Source of the DNA: Actinokineospora inagensis DSM 44258
GTDB taxonomy: Bacteria > Actinomycetota > Actinomycetes > Mycobacteriales > Pseudonocardiaceae
Direction of reading: 5' to 3'
DNA: 64,000 bases
NCBI RefSeq assembly: GCF_000482865.1
Contig: NZ_AXWW01000006.1
Span: forward strand, 124,001-188,000
Positions 20,263-42,294 of the stretch are shown piece after piece. The notes below the pieces were generated by a model, which searched no databases, was not told where the DNA came from, and worked only from the letters and a program-made list of their open reading frames with translations. Position numbers and translations under genes: made by a program. Every line of letters begins with the position of its first letter. Positions within the stretch are counted from its first letter, which is position 1.

Positions 20263-20861
20263 TGTCCACAGTGCCCCGCGCCATCCACAGGCTCCCAGCA
20301 CCACCCCTTGACAACCCGCGATCCGCGCTACGGTCAGGAATGGGCCCCGGCGCCCCGGGTGGGCGGGCCCCTGCCTGGACCACGACGGCAACTCCGTCAA
20401 GCAGCAGGCCACACTCGATCGGCGGATACGGACCCCACCCGCATCACACGGACCCGCCCCGCATCACACGGACCTCGCCCTCGTCCACAAGACATCAAGC
20501 CATCCACAGGACAACCCGGCCCCCTCTTGACAACCCGCGATCCGCGCTACCGTCAGGAATGGGCCCCGGCGCCCCGGGTGGGCGGGCCCCTGCCTGGACC
20601 ACGACGGCAACTCCGTCAAGCAGCAAGCCGCACTCGATCGGCGGACATTGACCCGCCCCTCATCGCATGAGCCCCGCCCTCATCACACAGACCCCAACCA
20701 CATCCACAAGGCATCGAGCCATCCACACGACAACCCGGCTCCCCCTTGACAACCCGCGATCCGCGCTACGGTCAGGAATGGGCCCCGGCGCCCCGGGTGG
20801 GAGGGGTCTGGGTGGGCCGAAGCGGGCGCCGTTGTGGGCGAAGGCGGGGGAATTCGTCAAG
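20263..20861 (+). repeat. Cluster C: three box-box-CTTGAC cassettes, 219-bp period
   Basis: Three copies of the window-wide repeat family on the plus strand. Copy 1: octamers 20263-20270 and 20282-20289, element 20307-20401. Copy 2: 20482-20489, 20501-20508, element 20526-20620. Copy 3: 20701-20708, 20720-20727, element 20745-20861 (right half diverged, about 22 bp longer). Starts are exactly 219 bp apart. Each element opens CTTGACA, has TAccgT or TAcggT 15 bp after TTGACA, a GGGCCCCGG core and ends GTCAAG. No gene lies in 20220-20939; the promoter-like arm points toward the cysM 3' end. Confidence 0.9.
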
Positions 20862-20939
20862 CGTGTGGGCGAGAGCGTGGGGGCGGAGTCGAGCGGGTTG
20901 TCCCGCAATCGGTGGGTGATGGCGGGACAACCCGGGGGG

Positions 20940-21890
20940 TCAGGCCCAGAGGTGTCCGTCGAGGCGTTCGGCGGCCTCGTCGAGGGTTCCGCTGTAGGCG
21001 CCGGTCGACAGGTACTTCCAGCCCGCGTCGGCGACGATGAAGACGACGTCGGCGGGGTCGCCCGCGCCCGCGGCTTTCTCGGCGACGGCGAGGGCGGCGT
21101 GCAGGATGGCTCCGGTGGAGATGCCCGCGAAGATGCCTTCGGTCTCCAGGAGTTGACGGGTGCGGCGGAGGGCGTCGTATGAGCCGACCGAGTAGCGGCC
21201 GGTCAGCACGGACGGGTCGTAGAGTTCCGGGACGAAGCCCTCGTCGAGGTTGCGCAGGCCGTAGACCAGTTCCCCGTAGCGGGGTTCGGCGGCGACGACC
21301 TGGACGTCCGGTTTGTGTTCGCGCAGGTACCGGCCGACGCCGACCAGGGTGCCGGTGGTGCCGAGGCCCGCGACGAAGTGCGTGATCGACGGGAGGTCGC
21401 GGAGGATCTCGGGGGCGGTGCCGGTGTAGTGCGCGGCGGCGTTGTCCGGGTTGCCGTACTGGTAGAGCATGATCCAGTCCGGGTGTTGCTCGGCGAGTTC
21501 CTTGGCCCGGCGGACGGCCTCGTTGGAGCCGCCCGCGGCGGGCGAGTAGACGATCCGGGCGCCGTAGGCCTGCAGCAGTTGCTTGCGTTCCTCGGACGTG
21601 TTCTCCGGCATGACGCACACCAGGCCGTAGCCCTTGAGCTTGGCGGCCATGGCGAGCGCGATGCCGGTGTTGCCCGAGGTGGGCTCCAGGATGGTGCTGC
21701 CGGGTAACAGCCTGCCGTCCCGCTCGGCGGCCTCGATCATGGCCAGCGCGGGACGGTCCTTGATCGAGCCGGTCGGGTTGCGGTCCTCGAGTTTCGCCCA
21801 CAGCCGCACCGTCGGGGACGGTGACAGCCGGGGCAGGCCGACGAGGGGGGTGTCGCCGAGCGCGTGCAGCAGCGACTCGTAGCGAGCCAC
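20940..21890 (-). CDS. cysM: CysO-dependent cysteine synthase
   Basis: A 316-residue PLP enzyme of the O-phosphoserine sulfhydrylase type. It joins O-phosphoserine with the thiocarboxylated CysO carrier to give a CysO-Cys adduct. PLP lysine lies in [11 protein letters not shown], the substrate loop in [12 protein letters not shown] and the glycine-rich phosphate site in [11 protein letters not shown]; the C-terminal part ([13 protein letters not shown]) is the lid segment seen in this family. GTG at 21890 shares one base with the cysO stop (TAGTG), so translation is coupled. Gene order mec-cysO-cysM identifies the oxidative-stress-resistant cysteine route known from M. tuberculosis. Confidence 0.96.
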
Positions 21891-39586: not shown

Positions 39587-40813
39587 CTAGATGCGCTCGG
39601 GGTCGATCCCGTCGGCGATGTCGGCGGCCTCGACCTCGTCGCGGGTCACGCCGAGGACGAACAGCACCACGTCCAGGTACGGGTGCGACAGGGCCGTGTC
39701 GGCGACTTCGCGCAGCGCGGGCTTGGCGTTGAAGGCGATGCCGAGACCCGCGGTGGACAGCATGTCGATGTCGTTCGCGCCGTCGCCGACCGCGACGCAC
39801 TGGGCGAGCGGCACGTGGAAGGCGTCGGCGAACCGGCGCAGCGCGGCCGCCTTGCCCGCCCGGTCCACAACCTCGCCGACGACCCGGCCGGTGAGCTTGC
39901 CGTCGACGACCTCGAGTTCGTTGGCGGCCTGGAAGTCCAGGCCCAGGTCGTCGACGAGGGTGTCGATGATCGCGGTGAAGCCGCCGGAGACGACGCCGCA
40001 GCGGTACCCGAGGCGCTTGAGGGTGCGGATGGTGGTGCGGGCCCCCGGGGTCAGTTGCAGGGCCTGGGCGACCTCGGTGAGGACGTCGGCGGGCAGCCCG
40101 GCGAGGGTGGCGACCCGGCGGTGCAGGCTCTCGGTGAAGTCGAGCTCACCGCGCATCGCGGCCTCGGTGATCTCGCGGACCTCGGCCTCGCAGCCCGCCT
40201 TCGCGGCCAGCATCTCGATGACCTCGCCCTGGATCAGGGTGGAGTCGACGTCGAACACGATCAGCCGCTTGGCGCGGCGGGCCAGCAGGTCCCGCTCGAC
40301 CGCGATGTCCAGGCCGACCCGTCCGGACAGCTCCGCCACCGCGGACCGCAACGCGGCGTCGGCCTCGTCGGTGTCCTTGGCGACCGAGACGCGCAACTCC
40401 AGACCGGTGACCGGGTAGTCGGCGACCCGGCGGATCGCGTCGATGTTGGCGTCCAGCGCGGCGAGCCTGCGGGCGACCGCGCCGAGCGCGCGGGCGCTGA
40501 CCGGCCTGCCGAGCACGACCAGCACGTGCGACGACCCGGACCGGGTCTGCGGGTCGACGCCGACCTCGACGATGACCCTCATGGCCACGGTGGCCATCGC
40601 CTGCTCGATCGACTCCTGCAGCCCCTCGGGGTCGTGGTCGGTGCTGACCAGCGCGCCGAGGACGAGCTGGCCGCGGATGACGACCTGCTCGACGTCGAGG
40701 ATGTCGACCCCGTGCCGGGTCAGCGCGGCGAACAGCACCGAGGACACCCCCGGCTTGTCCGGTCCGGTGACCGTGATCAGGACAGGGGTCTGGGGACCTG
40801 GTGAGGTGGACAC
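39587..40813 (-). CDS. serB: Phosphoserine phosphatase with two ACT domains
   Basis: A 408-residue SerB2-type enzyme that removes phosphate from L-phosphoserine in serine synthesis. Two N-terminal ACT domains ([20 protein letters not shown] at about 10-85, and [13 protein letters not shown] region to about 180) bind serine as allosteric effector. The HAD domain follows: nucleophile in [26 protein letters not shown] and [23 protein letters not shown] start. In mycobacteria serB2 is next to ctaD, as here, but in this genome a 1.7-kb repeat-rich gap lies between them. Because cysM uses O-phosphoserine, SerB competes with cysteine synthesis. Confidence 0.96.
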
Positions 40814-41240
40814 GATCCGGTTGCTCCCATGACGACGGGCCCGACGGGTCGGGCTGATGGGTGACTGGGTGTGGTTCGGACTGTGTCGCCTACCTCGACC
40901 GGATTACGGCCGACGAGGTGACGGACGGGTCGGTGAACCCCGGCGGGATCGGTACACCCCAGGCAGGCCACGTCGGCTGCCCAGCCGGGTCGAACCCCCA
41001 GCCCAACCCCAACACGGCAAACCCGGCAGACGTCGTCGGCTGCCACCGCCCGGGGTCGAGCATCCACAACAGACCGCCCGAACGGCACCAGCCGCCCGAA
41101 CGGGCACAACAGGCCAACTGGCCAGGCACGCCGGGACTGCACAACCCCAACGCCCCCTACCGATCGCTCGGCAAGCTCCACCCGATCCCCCAGGCGCGAC
41201 TCCCCCACCCGCCCGGCGACCCACCCCGCACTCACTGGCC
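40814..41240. other. Gene-free stretch before the tandem array
   Basis: This 427-bp stretch between serB and the first array unit shows no credible gene or terminator. Long open frames cross it on both strands only because stop codons are rare at this GC content. It is C/A-rich on the plus strand and has scattered CATCCACA and GCACAAC words that resemble the array octamers without the fixed 19-bp spacing. It should contain the serB promoter. Confidence 0.5.
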
Positions 41241-42294
41241 CTTGACGGGGACTCCGCCGTGGTCCAGGCAGGGGCCCGCCCACCCGGGGCACCGGGGCCC
41301 ATTCCTGACCGTAACGCGGATCGCGGCTTGTCAAGAGAGGGCAGGCCCAGGCTGAGGACACCCCAACCCCTCGTGGACAACCACCCAGCCCACCCCCACC
41401 CGATCGAGCCCCACCAGACCCTTGACGACCACCCCGCCACAGTCCACACAGGAGCCCGCCCACCCGGGGCACCGGGGCCCATTCCTGACCGTAACGCGGA
41501 TCGCGAGTTGTCAAGAGGGGACGGCGTGAAGCTGTGGACAACCCAACCACGTGTGCACAACCACCCCGACCAAGCCCACCCGGTCGGGGCCGACCGCACG
41601 CTTGACGGAAACGCCGCCGTGGTCCAGACAGGAGCCCGCCCACCCGGGGGCCGGGGGCCCATTCCTGACCATAGCGCGGAACGCGGGTTGTCAAGAGGGG
41701 ATGGCCTGGAGCTGTGGACAGTTCGACGACCTGTGCACAACCACCGCGCCCAAGCCCACCCGATCGAGCCCCACCAGACCCTTGACCGAAACGCCGCCGT
41801 GGTCCAGACAGGGGCCCGCCCACCCGGGGCGCCGGGGCCCATTCCTGACCGTAACGCGGATCGCGAGTTGTCAAGAGGGGGCGACCGGATGTTGTGGACA
41901 ATCCGACCGCCTGTGGACAGGTATCGCGTCCAACCTCAACCGATCGGGGCCGTCCAGATGCTTGACGAAAACGCCGCCGTGGTCCAGGCAGGAGCCCGCC
42001 CACCCGGGGGCCGGGGGCCCATTCCTGACCATAGCGCGGAACGCGGGTTGTCAAGAGGGGATGGCCTGGAGCTGTGGACAGTTCGACGACCTGTGCACAA
42101 CCACCGCGCCCAAGTCCAACCGATCGGGGCCGTCCAGACGCTTGACGGAAACGCCGCCGTGGTCCAGACAGGAGCCCGCCCACCCGGGGCACCGGGGCCC
42201 ATTCCTGACGATAGCGCGAAACGGGACTTGTCAAGAGGGGGTGGCCGAGGCGTGTGGACAGCTCGGCAGTGTGTGGACAGCCACGAACAAGGGT
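41241..42294 (-). repeat. Six-copy tandem array, exact 180-bp period
   Basis: Elements at 41241-41335, 41421-41515, 41601-41695, 41781-41875, 41961-42055 and 42141-42235, each 95 bp and each starting exactly 180 bp after the last. Every unit has CTTGAC/GTCAAG ends, a GC core pairing CAGG with CCTG around GGGGCCC, and octamers at offsets 112 and 131 (for example TGTGGACA 41533-41540 and TGTGCACA 41552-41559). On the minus strand each arm reads TTGACA-N15-TAnnnT. Two core variants alternate (CACCCGGGGCACC in units 1, 2, 6; GGGGGCC in units 3 and 5). The array lies between serB and ctaD and its promoter-like arms point toward serB. Confidence 0.93.

Follow-up and report, generated by a model that had tools for sequence, protein, structure and literature searches.

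Dispersed non-coding cassettes of Actinokineospora inagensis share a paired upstream box with competence-type genes of the family

Introduction

What are the promoter-like non-coding repeats that recur in three clusters within one stretch of Actinokineospora inagensis DSM 44258 DNA, and with which other sequences do they share their parts? The stretch analysed here (the window) spans 64,000 nucleotides, positions 124001-188000 of one contig of a 7.28-Mb genome in 97 contigs. The initial annotation, made from the letters alone, had described a cassette in which two operator-like boxes, a promoter-like arm and a hairpin are kept together in an invariant geometry. We followed this cassette through the window, the genome and the family, and found its box pair in front of genes of the ComEA and YraN types in most of the genera sampled. 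These sequence patterns lead us to favour, as somewhat probable, the reading of the cassette as a self-contained, non-coding promoter unit belonging to a regulon of the competence/DNA-repair type.

Results

Cassette architecture and copies in the window

Read 5′ to 3′, the cassette consists of box 1 (TTGTCCACA), 10 bp, box 2 (TTGTCCACAG), 16–17 bp, TTGACA, 15 bp and TAnnnT, continues with CAGGAATGGGCCCC and a block of C- and G-runs (CCCCGGGTGGGyGGG), and is closed ~90 bp past TTGACA by GTCAAG, which is missing in one copy (20746). It is ~140 bp long and non-coding. All thirteen cassettes that had been reported were recovered: TTGACA-N15-TAnnnT accounts for three on the plus strand (20308-20772), four on the minus strand (31821-34223) and six more on the minus strand (41308-42234), and the same pattern extended by CAGGAATGGG (≤3 mismatches) gave 13 matches in the window and none in shuffled windows. 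The first cluster comprises cassette 1 (20262..20401, +), with the box pair, TTGACA-N15-TACGGT, G-tracts and GTCAAG, cassette 2 (20481..20620, +) and cassette 3 (20700..20840, +), the copy without GTCAAG, whose end is set from the default length. The second, on the minus strand, comprises cassette 4 (31754..31893), cassette 5 (32060..32200), which has two exact TTGTCCACA boxes, cassette 6 (33387..33526), with a core near-identical to that of cassette 5, and cassette 7 (34130..34268). Cassettes 8 to 13 form the minus-strand array near 41 kb (41241..41380, 41421..41560, 41601..41740, 41781..41920, 41961..42100 and 42141..42280). The one fragment mentioned earlier is visible by eye near 32.27 kb as a 3′ tail with approximate ends (32275..32330, −; unscored). 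Between the near-identical cassettes 5 and 6, an apparent decayed regulator gene with an HTH-like reading and broken frames can also be made out by eye (32200-33390, −); it looks as if it had been carried between duplicated cassette copies.

The described geometry proved sound: the box starts lie 19 bp apart and the TTGACA-to-TAnnnT spacer is 15 bp in 13/13 copies, and box 2, taken as a 9-mer, ends 18 bp before TTGACA in 12/13, the copy at 34223 (cassette 7) being one base shorter, as had been pointed out. Uniformity does not extend to the letters of the boxes: several have degenerate forms, with CATCCACA among the copies at 20 kb and TGTGCACA in the array near 41 kb. Exact TTGTCCACA boxes number seven within the window cassettes, in line with the earlier count of at least seven, and three more lie outside cassettes. 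The pair TGTCCACA-N11-TGTCCACA (≤3 mismatches) matched 16 times in the window against 0.44 expected; 12 matches are cassette pairs in cassette orientation, one lies outside any cassette (32954) and three are TGTGCACA pairs read on the opposite strand, while the pair of the thirteenth cassette (20746) is too degenerate for this cut. Both sigma-70 hexamers are present, but their 15-bp spacer falls outside the 17 ± 1 bp range in the 13 window cassettes. No Rfam match was obtained for the window cassettes or for an array of cassettes of this type, hereafter class A.

Copies across the genome

The genome scan yielded 89 class A cassettes (35 + 54; ≤3 mismatches) or, with a looser pattern at ≤2 mismatches, 100 (43 + 57), and the read-backwards control gave 0 for both counts; the patterns were fixed at N15 between TTGACA and TA and thus cover this single spacing. 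An N run inside the cassette array of one locus (L065, ~1870-1980, −) means that array copy number is possibly underestimated. Among 297 family genomes, only three had class A matches, all of the genus Actinokineospora.

The linkage test free of box preselection used the 89 cores picked by TTGACA-N15-TAnnnT-ATGGG alone: 79 have the box pair (≤4 mismatches), compared to 0/178 controls, with a 10-bp spacer in 79/79 and a distance from the end of the 10-mer to TTGACA of 17 bp in 65 and 16 bp in 14. The joint retention of boxes, promoter-like arm and C/G-run block thus holds genome-wide; the hairpin, considered below, found no such support. In 70 copies, preselected to carry boxes, TTGACA and TA within 6 mismatches, so that part of the box conservation is built in, strong conservation is seen for the boxes, TTGACA, TCGCG-TA, CAGGAATGGGCCCC and the C/G runs, whereas the two spacers, one separating the boxes and one leading from box 2 to TTGACA, mostly stay near background. 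All cassettes were retrieved by patterns fixing TTGACA, N15 and TA. A fixed block of elements with unconserved spacers indicates that the cassette is not a simple recent repeat.

The class A cassettes are intergenic: genes were called from codon usage, with the window as training set, and 0/87 cassettes overlap one. Downstream, 49 cassettes have a neighbour on the opposite strand and 33 a neighbour on the same strand, while the locus of the other five includes none. This bears on whether the cassettes simply serve as promoters of neighbouring protein genes, as might be supposed from the like promoter architecture in front of comEA- and yraN-type genes and from the position of the 41-kb array upstream of a gene for an ACT/HAD-domain, SerB-like protein (39587-40747, −). 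With an opposite-strand neighbour in 49/82, the nearest same-strand gene start at 177 bp (median 673 bp), and the promoters of the 20-kb, 31.75-kb and 34.13-kb cassettes aimed into the 3′ end of a gene, we regard this explanation as highly improbable.

A box pair shared across the family

The pair TTGTCCACA-N10-TTGTCCACAG (≤1 mismatch) occurs in 80/120 family genomes and 37/46 genera, the read-backwards control giving one match in total, and in relatives it sits ~49–108 bp before gene starts. Among 20 proteins hand-picked for Pfam scanning from ~50 such loci, those encoded behind the pair include SLBB+HHH (ComEA type), UPF0102 (YraN), SSB, SAF and RecA proteins; five had no Pfam match (L208, L181, L172, L169 and L177) and one (L130) only a sub-threshold ParA match. 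We take L130, L169 and L177 to be Ssd/CpaE-like. In A. inagensis itself, the pair precedes a gene for a RecQ-type helicase.

We also fetched comEA loci (30 of 45 matching genomes) and yraN loci (30 of 46) by protein, ignoring the boxes, and searched them at ≤4 mismatches with a spacer of 8–11. The pair lies upstream of comEA in 26/30 loci and of yraN in 26/30, and is found in 0/120 control windows (antisense, downstream) and 0/96 upstream regions of other genes in these loci. A −10-like hexamer follows the pair at 37–40 bp in 44/45 loci (≤3 mismatches, 13-nt search window), compared with 70/1200 random 13-nt windows. A ComM-type gene (Mg_chelatase/ChlI) comes after yraN in 3/3 cases checked, including this genome, whose own comEA has a pair with 3 mismatches and whose own yraN has only a degenerate pair with 5. 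For comEA loci sampled at the level of the class (30 of 59 matched genomes), the pair was found in 8/30 (≤4 mismatches; antisense 0/30), one of these being the locus of this genome and two coming from genomes of the same order, which makes the pair beyond the family a weak signal.

Judged by these patterns, the box pair is a family-wide promoter element, and its most fitting interpretation is that of a competence/DNA-repair operator. The view that the boxes are bound to the 95-bp element has to be given up, since the pair also precedes comEA, yraN, ssb, recA, recQ, other genes and other modules. On the side of the boxes, then, the independence that the initial annotation had named as grounds for dismissal is real.

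The boxes raise a further question, since TTGTCCACA is identical to what we take to be the actinobacterial DnaA box consensus, and this 9-mer identity is what links the boxes to DnaA and makes it a candidate regulator. Were these true DnaA boxes, the cassettes would serve to titrate DnaA or to link transcription with replication, and both the seven exact copies in the window cassettes and the surroundings of dnaA in this genome, with five box matches at ≤1 mismatch, two of them exact, are compatible with this. The boxes at the dnaA locus (L346; TTGTCCACA twice, TTGTCCACG, TTGTCCACC and TTGTCCCCA), however, include no pair spaced by 18–19 bp, the nearest two being 11 bp apart. Moreover, the constant distance to the −10 and the sites before comEA, yraN and ssb suit a transcription operator, and titration would require no conserved −10, start region or G-tracts. 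We consider a role as DnaA boxes unlikely, although DnaA may act as the regulator at these promoters.

Sister modules with the same pair

Two further non-coding classes have the −10-like hexamer again ~37–38 bp downstream of the pair: class B, with the sequence TAGACTGG-n-GGGGnCGCCCCCC-n-GGGTGGGGG, and class C, with TTGTCGG-N8-TAGGCT and ending in GTTGATCTTG. The loci behind these classes had been retrieved through a cassette or a box pair; the G000 and other labels follow locus numbers, and some G000 loci are mislabelled. A search with the class B core only found 144 copies in the A. inagensis genome and matches in 43/120 genomes and 22/46 genera, the reversed control giving 0. Together with the 100 class A copies, this amounts to ~240 non-coding cassettes in one genome, the boxes having been checked in part of the copies. 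For 25 class B cores from 24 loci (two of the cores being from this genome and a further two from its genus), a pair-like match was present in 16 (≤4 mismatches; controls 0/50), 12 with a direct and four with an inverted second box, and most of those failing the cut keep one box, as judged by eye. The inverted form, seen in some copies of other genera (L358-L361), reads TTGTCCACA-N11-nTGTGGACAA. Only 1/25 class B cores overlaps a called gene. A leaderless peptide starting from the ATG in CAGGAATGGG was dropped by eye, the ATG not being conserved in other classes.

The TTGTCGG-N8-TAnnnT-like elements presumably correspond to the PafBC/RecA-NDp DNA-damage promoter motif, and both the class C modules and recA (L189) carry them downstream of the same pair. 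Class A differs from such promoters in having TTGACA 15 bp before the −10, and class B in having, as judged by eye, similarly placed TTGATC/TTGACC-like hexamers; in one scan, the G236, G244 and G045 matches and a few more are not TTGACA promoters. An Rfam scan of nine class B and C loci returned a miRNA match at chance level (E = 0.32) as the sole hit. Class C elements stand in tandem in G244 (G236/G244 loci L084, L085, L105, L117, L123 and L129). In both G236 and G244, class C elements are followed by a long stretch (around GTGGGGCCCCTACGACA and CCGCAAAGCAGGGGCCGAAAAGCGTGGCCCTG) that the two species have in common, as seen by eye; it may be a separate repeat or RNA, and L084, L105 and L117 gave no convincing Rfam match.

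Comparison with mobile repeats

REP and MITE elements are intergenic, dispersed and found in tandem copies, as are the cassettes. A selfish or inert MITE-like repeat, whose promoter was copied once from a competence-type gene and which has no function for the host, would fit the patchy distribution, the tandem arrays, the range from zero to ~240 copies per genome and the intergenic sites. A comparison of 68 G000 loci with 47 from A. terrae and A. globicatena gave two cases in which a single fetched locus matched both flanks, and these orthologous sites are far shorter in A. terrae: ~670 bp with one cassette compared to 3 bp, and ~960 bp with three cassettes compared to 68 bp. Neither a target duplication nor a clean junction was visible at these two sites. 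In the flanks, a BLAST search for a longer repeat unit returned neighbouring cassettes, as far as those examined among the matches listed are concerned. The cassettes thus differ from REP/MITE elements in that neither terminal inverted repeats nor target duplications were found; no search was made for a partner transposase or RAYT. CTTGAC/GTCAAG was rejected as a terminal inverted repeat, GTCAAG being the opening of the longer GTCAAnCGCTGGATCGGGTG in 35/120 class A copies, and an origin from the DUF222/HNH (13E12) repeat was rejected as well, PF02720 having no match in the genome. Against a purely selfish repeat stand the conservation of boxes, −10, start region and runs amid near-background spacers and the same box-to-−10 distance kept by different modules in many genera, although transposition-related constraint could mimic part of this conservation. 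Overall, an inert repeat appears rather unlikely to us.

G-tracts, hairpin and 3′ motif

Past the −10, four close G-tracts with short last loops lie on the RNA-like strand in 112/120 class A, 32/32 class B and 14/15 'other hairpin' copies, and in 7/78 unclassified ones, compared to dinucleotide-shuffle expectations of 10.9, 9.1, 2.2 and 1.2; on the opposite strand, the counts are 0 for classes A, B, C and other hairpin and 1 for the unclassified copies. This is the arrangement of a non-template-strand G-quadruplex site, four close G-tracts downstream of a promoter, and such a structure may form in the cell. Folds computed with DNA parameters contain a quadruplex in 51/120, 29/32 and 10/15 copies of classes A, B and other hairpin, respectively. 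The presence of four G-tracts after the −10 makes a G-quadruplex/R-loop role, by analogy with gonococcal pilE, conceivable, with a hairpin as the alternative. The 3′ motif GTCAAnCGCTGGATCGGGTG occurs in 35/120 class A copies (1.0 expected) and 7/32 class B copies (0.45 expected).

The hairpin proposed initially drew no support from covariation, the covarying base pairs that mark a structured-RNA gene being essentially absent. In class A, the C4-loop-G4 form falls short of expectation (31/120 vs 57.8 expected), though not in class B, where it is commoner (32/32 vs 15.9). A terminator or attenuator hairpin formed by the C/G-run block, which would make halting transcription the main role of the cassette, finds some encouragement in the strong hairpins predicted for class A examples (−15.9 to −20 kcal/mol) and in convergent gene pairs being the most frequent surroundings (27/77). 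The block, however, has no U-run, promoter elements stand directly in front of it, and the depletion of the hairpin form in class A runs counter to such a role, which we deem very unlikely.

Other features of the window

The region upstream of a Tex/S1 gene (53129-55489) shows a related operator geometry (53012..53094, +): TTGTCCACAG at 53012 and 53041, that is, 29 bp apart and not 19, is followed after 38 bp by a CAGAAT −10 at 53089. Long degenerate tandem repeats of 15–36 bp occupy 58871-59298, within the called gene 58152-59759 (−), and are likely to encode a repetitive protein.

Discussion

A promoter unit of a competence/DNA-repair-type regulon would work as follows. With a transcription start just past the −10, the two TTGTCCACA boxes would have their centres near −75 and −55. 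They would bind a family-wide activator, which would make up for the shortness of the 15-bp gap separating TTGACA from TAnnnT and could switch on the cassettes together with the competence genes. A short transcript would start at or near GGAATGGGCCCC / GGAATGGG, and within its first ~30 nt the four G-tracts on the RNA-like strand alternate with C-runs, a block that could form either a G-quadruplex (within an R-loop, the G-rich strand being displaced) or a GC hairpin. For some copies of this genome, the second motif, GTCAAnCGCTGGATCGGGTG, would mark the end of the transcribed region, and the unit may have spread between genes and through tandem duplication.

Several observations weigh against this reading. 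The pair also precedes genes that are not of competence type, encoding DUF4192, Peptidase_M23, polyprenyl synthetase and ABC transporter proteins and, as seen by eye, a CoxS-like protein, and no sign of natural competence in these organisms was met in the material considered. Ten of the 89 cores have no pair at the cut (one is interrupted by an assembly gap and most others have degenerate boxes), and the copies are related by descent, their counts not being independent events. As for the transcript, the G-tracts are found in 0/16 class C copies (0.6 expected), and one G-run is already part of the definition of class A, as a G5 run is of that of other hairpin, for which the shuffles do not correct. 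Minimum-energy RNA folds contain a quadruplex in only 34/120 class A, 21/32 class B and 6/15 other hairpin copies; RNAalifold gave nearly no consensus structure; and covariation is essentially absent, since of the many column pairs tested two remained after filtering (p = 0.002 and p = 0.012). Finally, the G- and C-runs are about equally conserved in the 70 copies, so that G-quadruplex and hairpin are indistinguishable on this count.

The G-tract/C-run block has its closest working analogy in gonococcal pilE, where a small non-coding RNA starts within the G-quadruplex-forming sequence and, working in cis, contributes to recombination (PMC3547852). That system is one proteobacterial locus, for which the parts of the account drawn on here describe no paired box, and the function established at pilE could be only conjectured for the cassettes. 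On a bolder view, the cassettes would be programmed recombination or DNA-integration sites: with the regulon on, transcription would produce an R-loop with a displaced-strand G-quadruplex, and RecA would be recruited. We hold this to be improbable; were it true, the genome would contain ~240 chromosomal seeds for uptake-linked recombination, a dispersed version of the pilE switch.

For the repeat as such, the closest analogy is the pneumococcal BOX, a dispersed structured repeat with 127 copies in strain D39V (PMC6560143), one of which is linked to competence-gene expression, although BOX elements are considered likely parasitic (PMC3049150). As far as these accounts go, the likeness lies in a dispersed repeat with a connection to competence; the comAB BOX lies within the transcript, past the start, whereas every cassette comes with a box pair and promoter-like hexamers of its own; what the cassettes and the competence-type genes have in common is the boxes and not the repeat as a whole. 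Control of an actinobacterial comEA promoter has been studied in Micrococcus luteus comEA/EC (PMC8467076, PMC12849477), where the comEA/EC reporter phenotype, altered in the parent mutant, was restored by a mutation in the gene for an HTH_17 protein, which neighbours a CpaB-like gene (PMC8467076). By analogy, this protein is another lead to a regulator. The pair shared by cassettes and comEA would provide an operator motif, of which the sections of those accounts drawn on here contain none.

We found no description in open-access PMC of dispersed cassettes with a box pair and G-tracts at the would-be transcript start, and the letters TTGTCCACAG gave no bacterial-promoter title among the matches listed there. 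Control of natural competence in Actinobacteria is largely an open matter, and the competence regulon of M. luteus is described as currently unknown in the consulted part of a January 2026 paper (PMC12849477). The occurrence of the pair before comEA and yraN-comM in most sampled genera, and before ssb, recA and other genes in some, offers a concrete candidate binding site that could serve as bait for the regulator, and the cassettes are an experimental handle on what such dispersed repeats do. The paired switch is a testable lead to how these bacteria might control DNA uptake.

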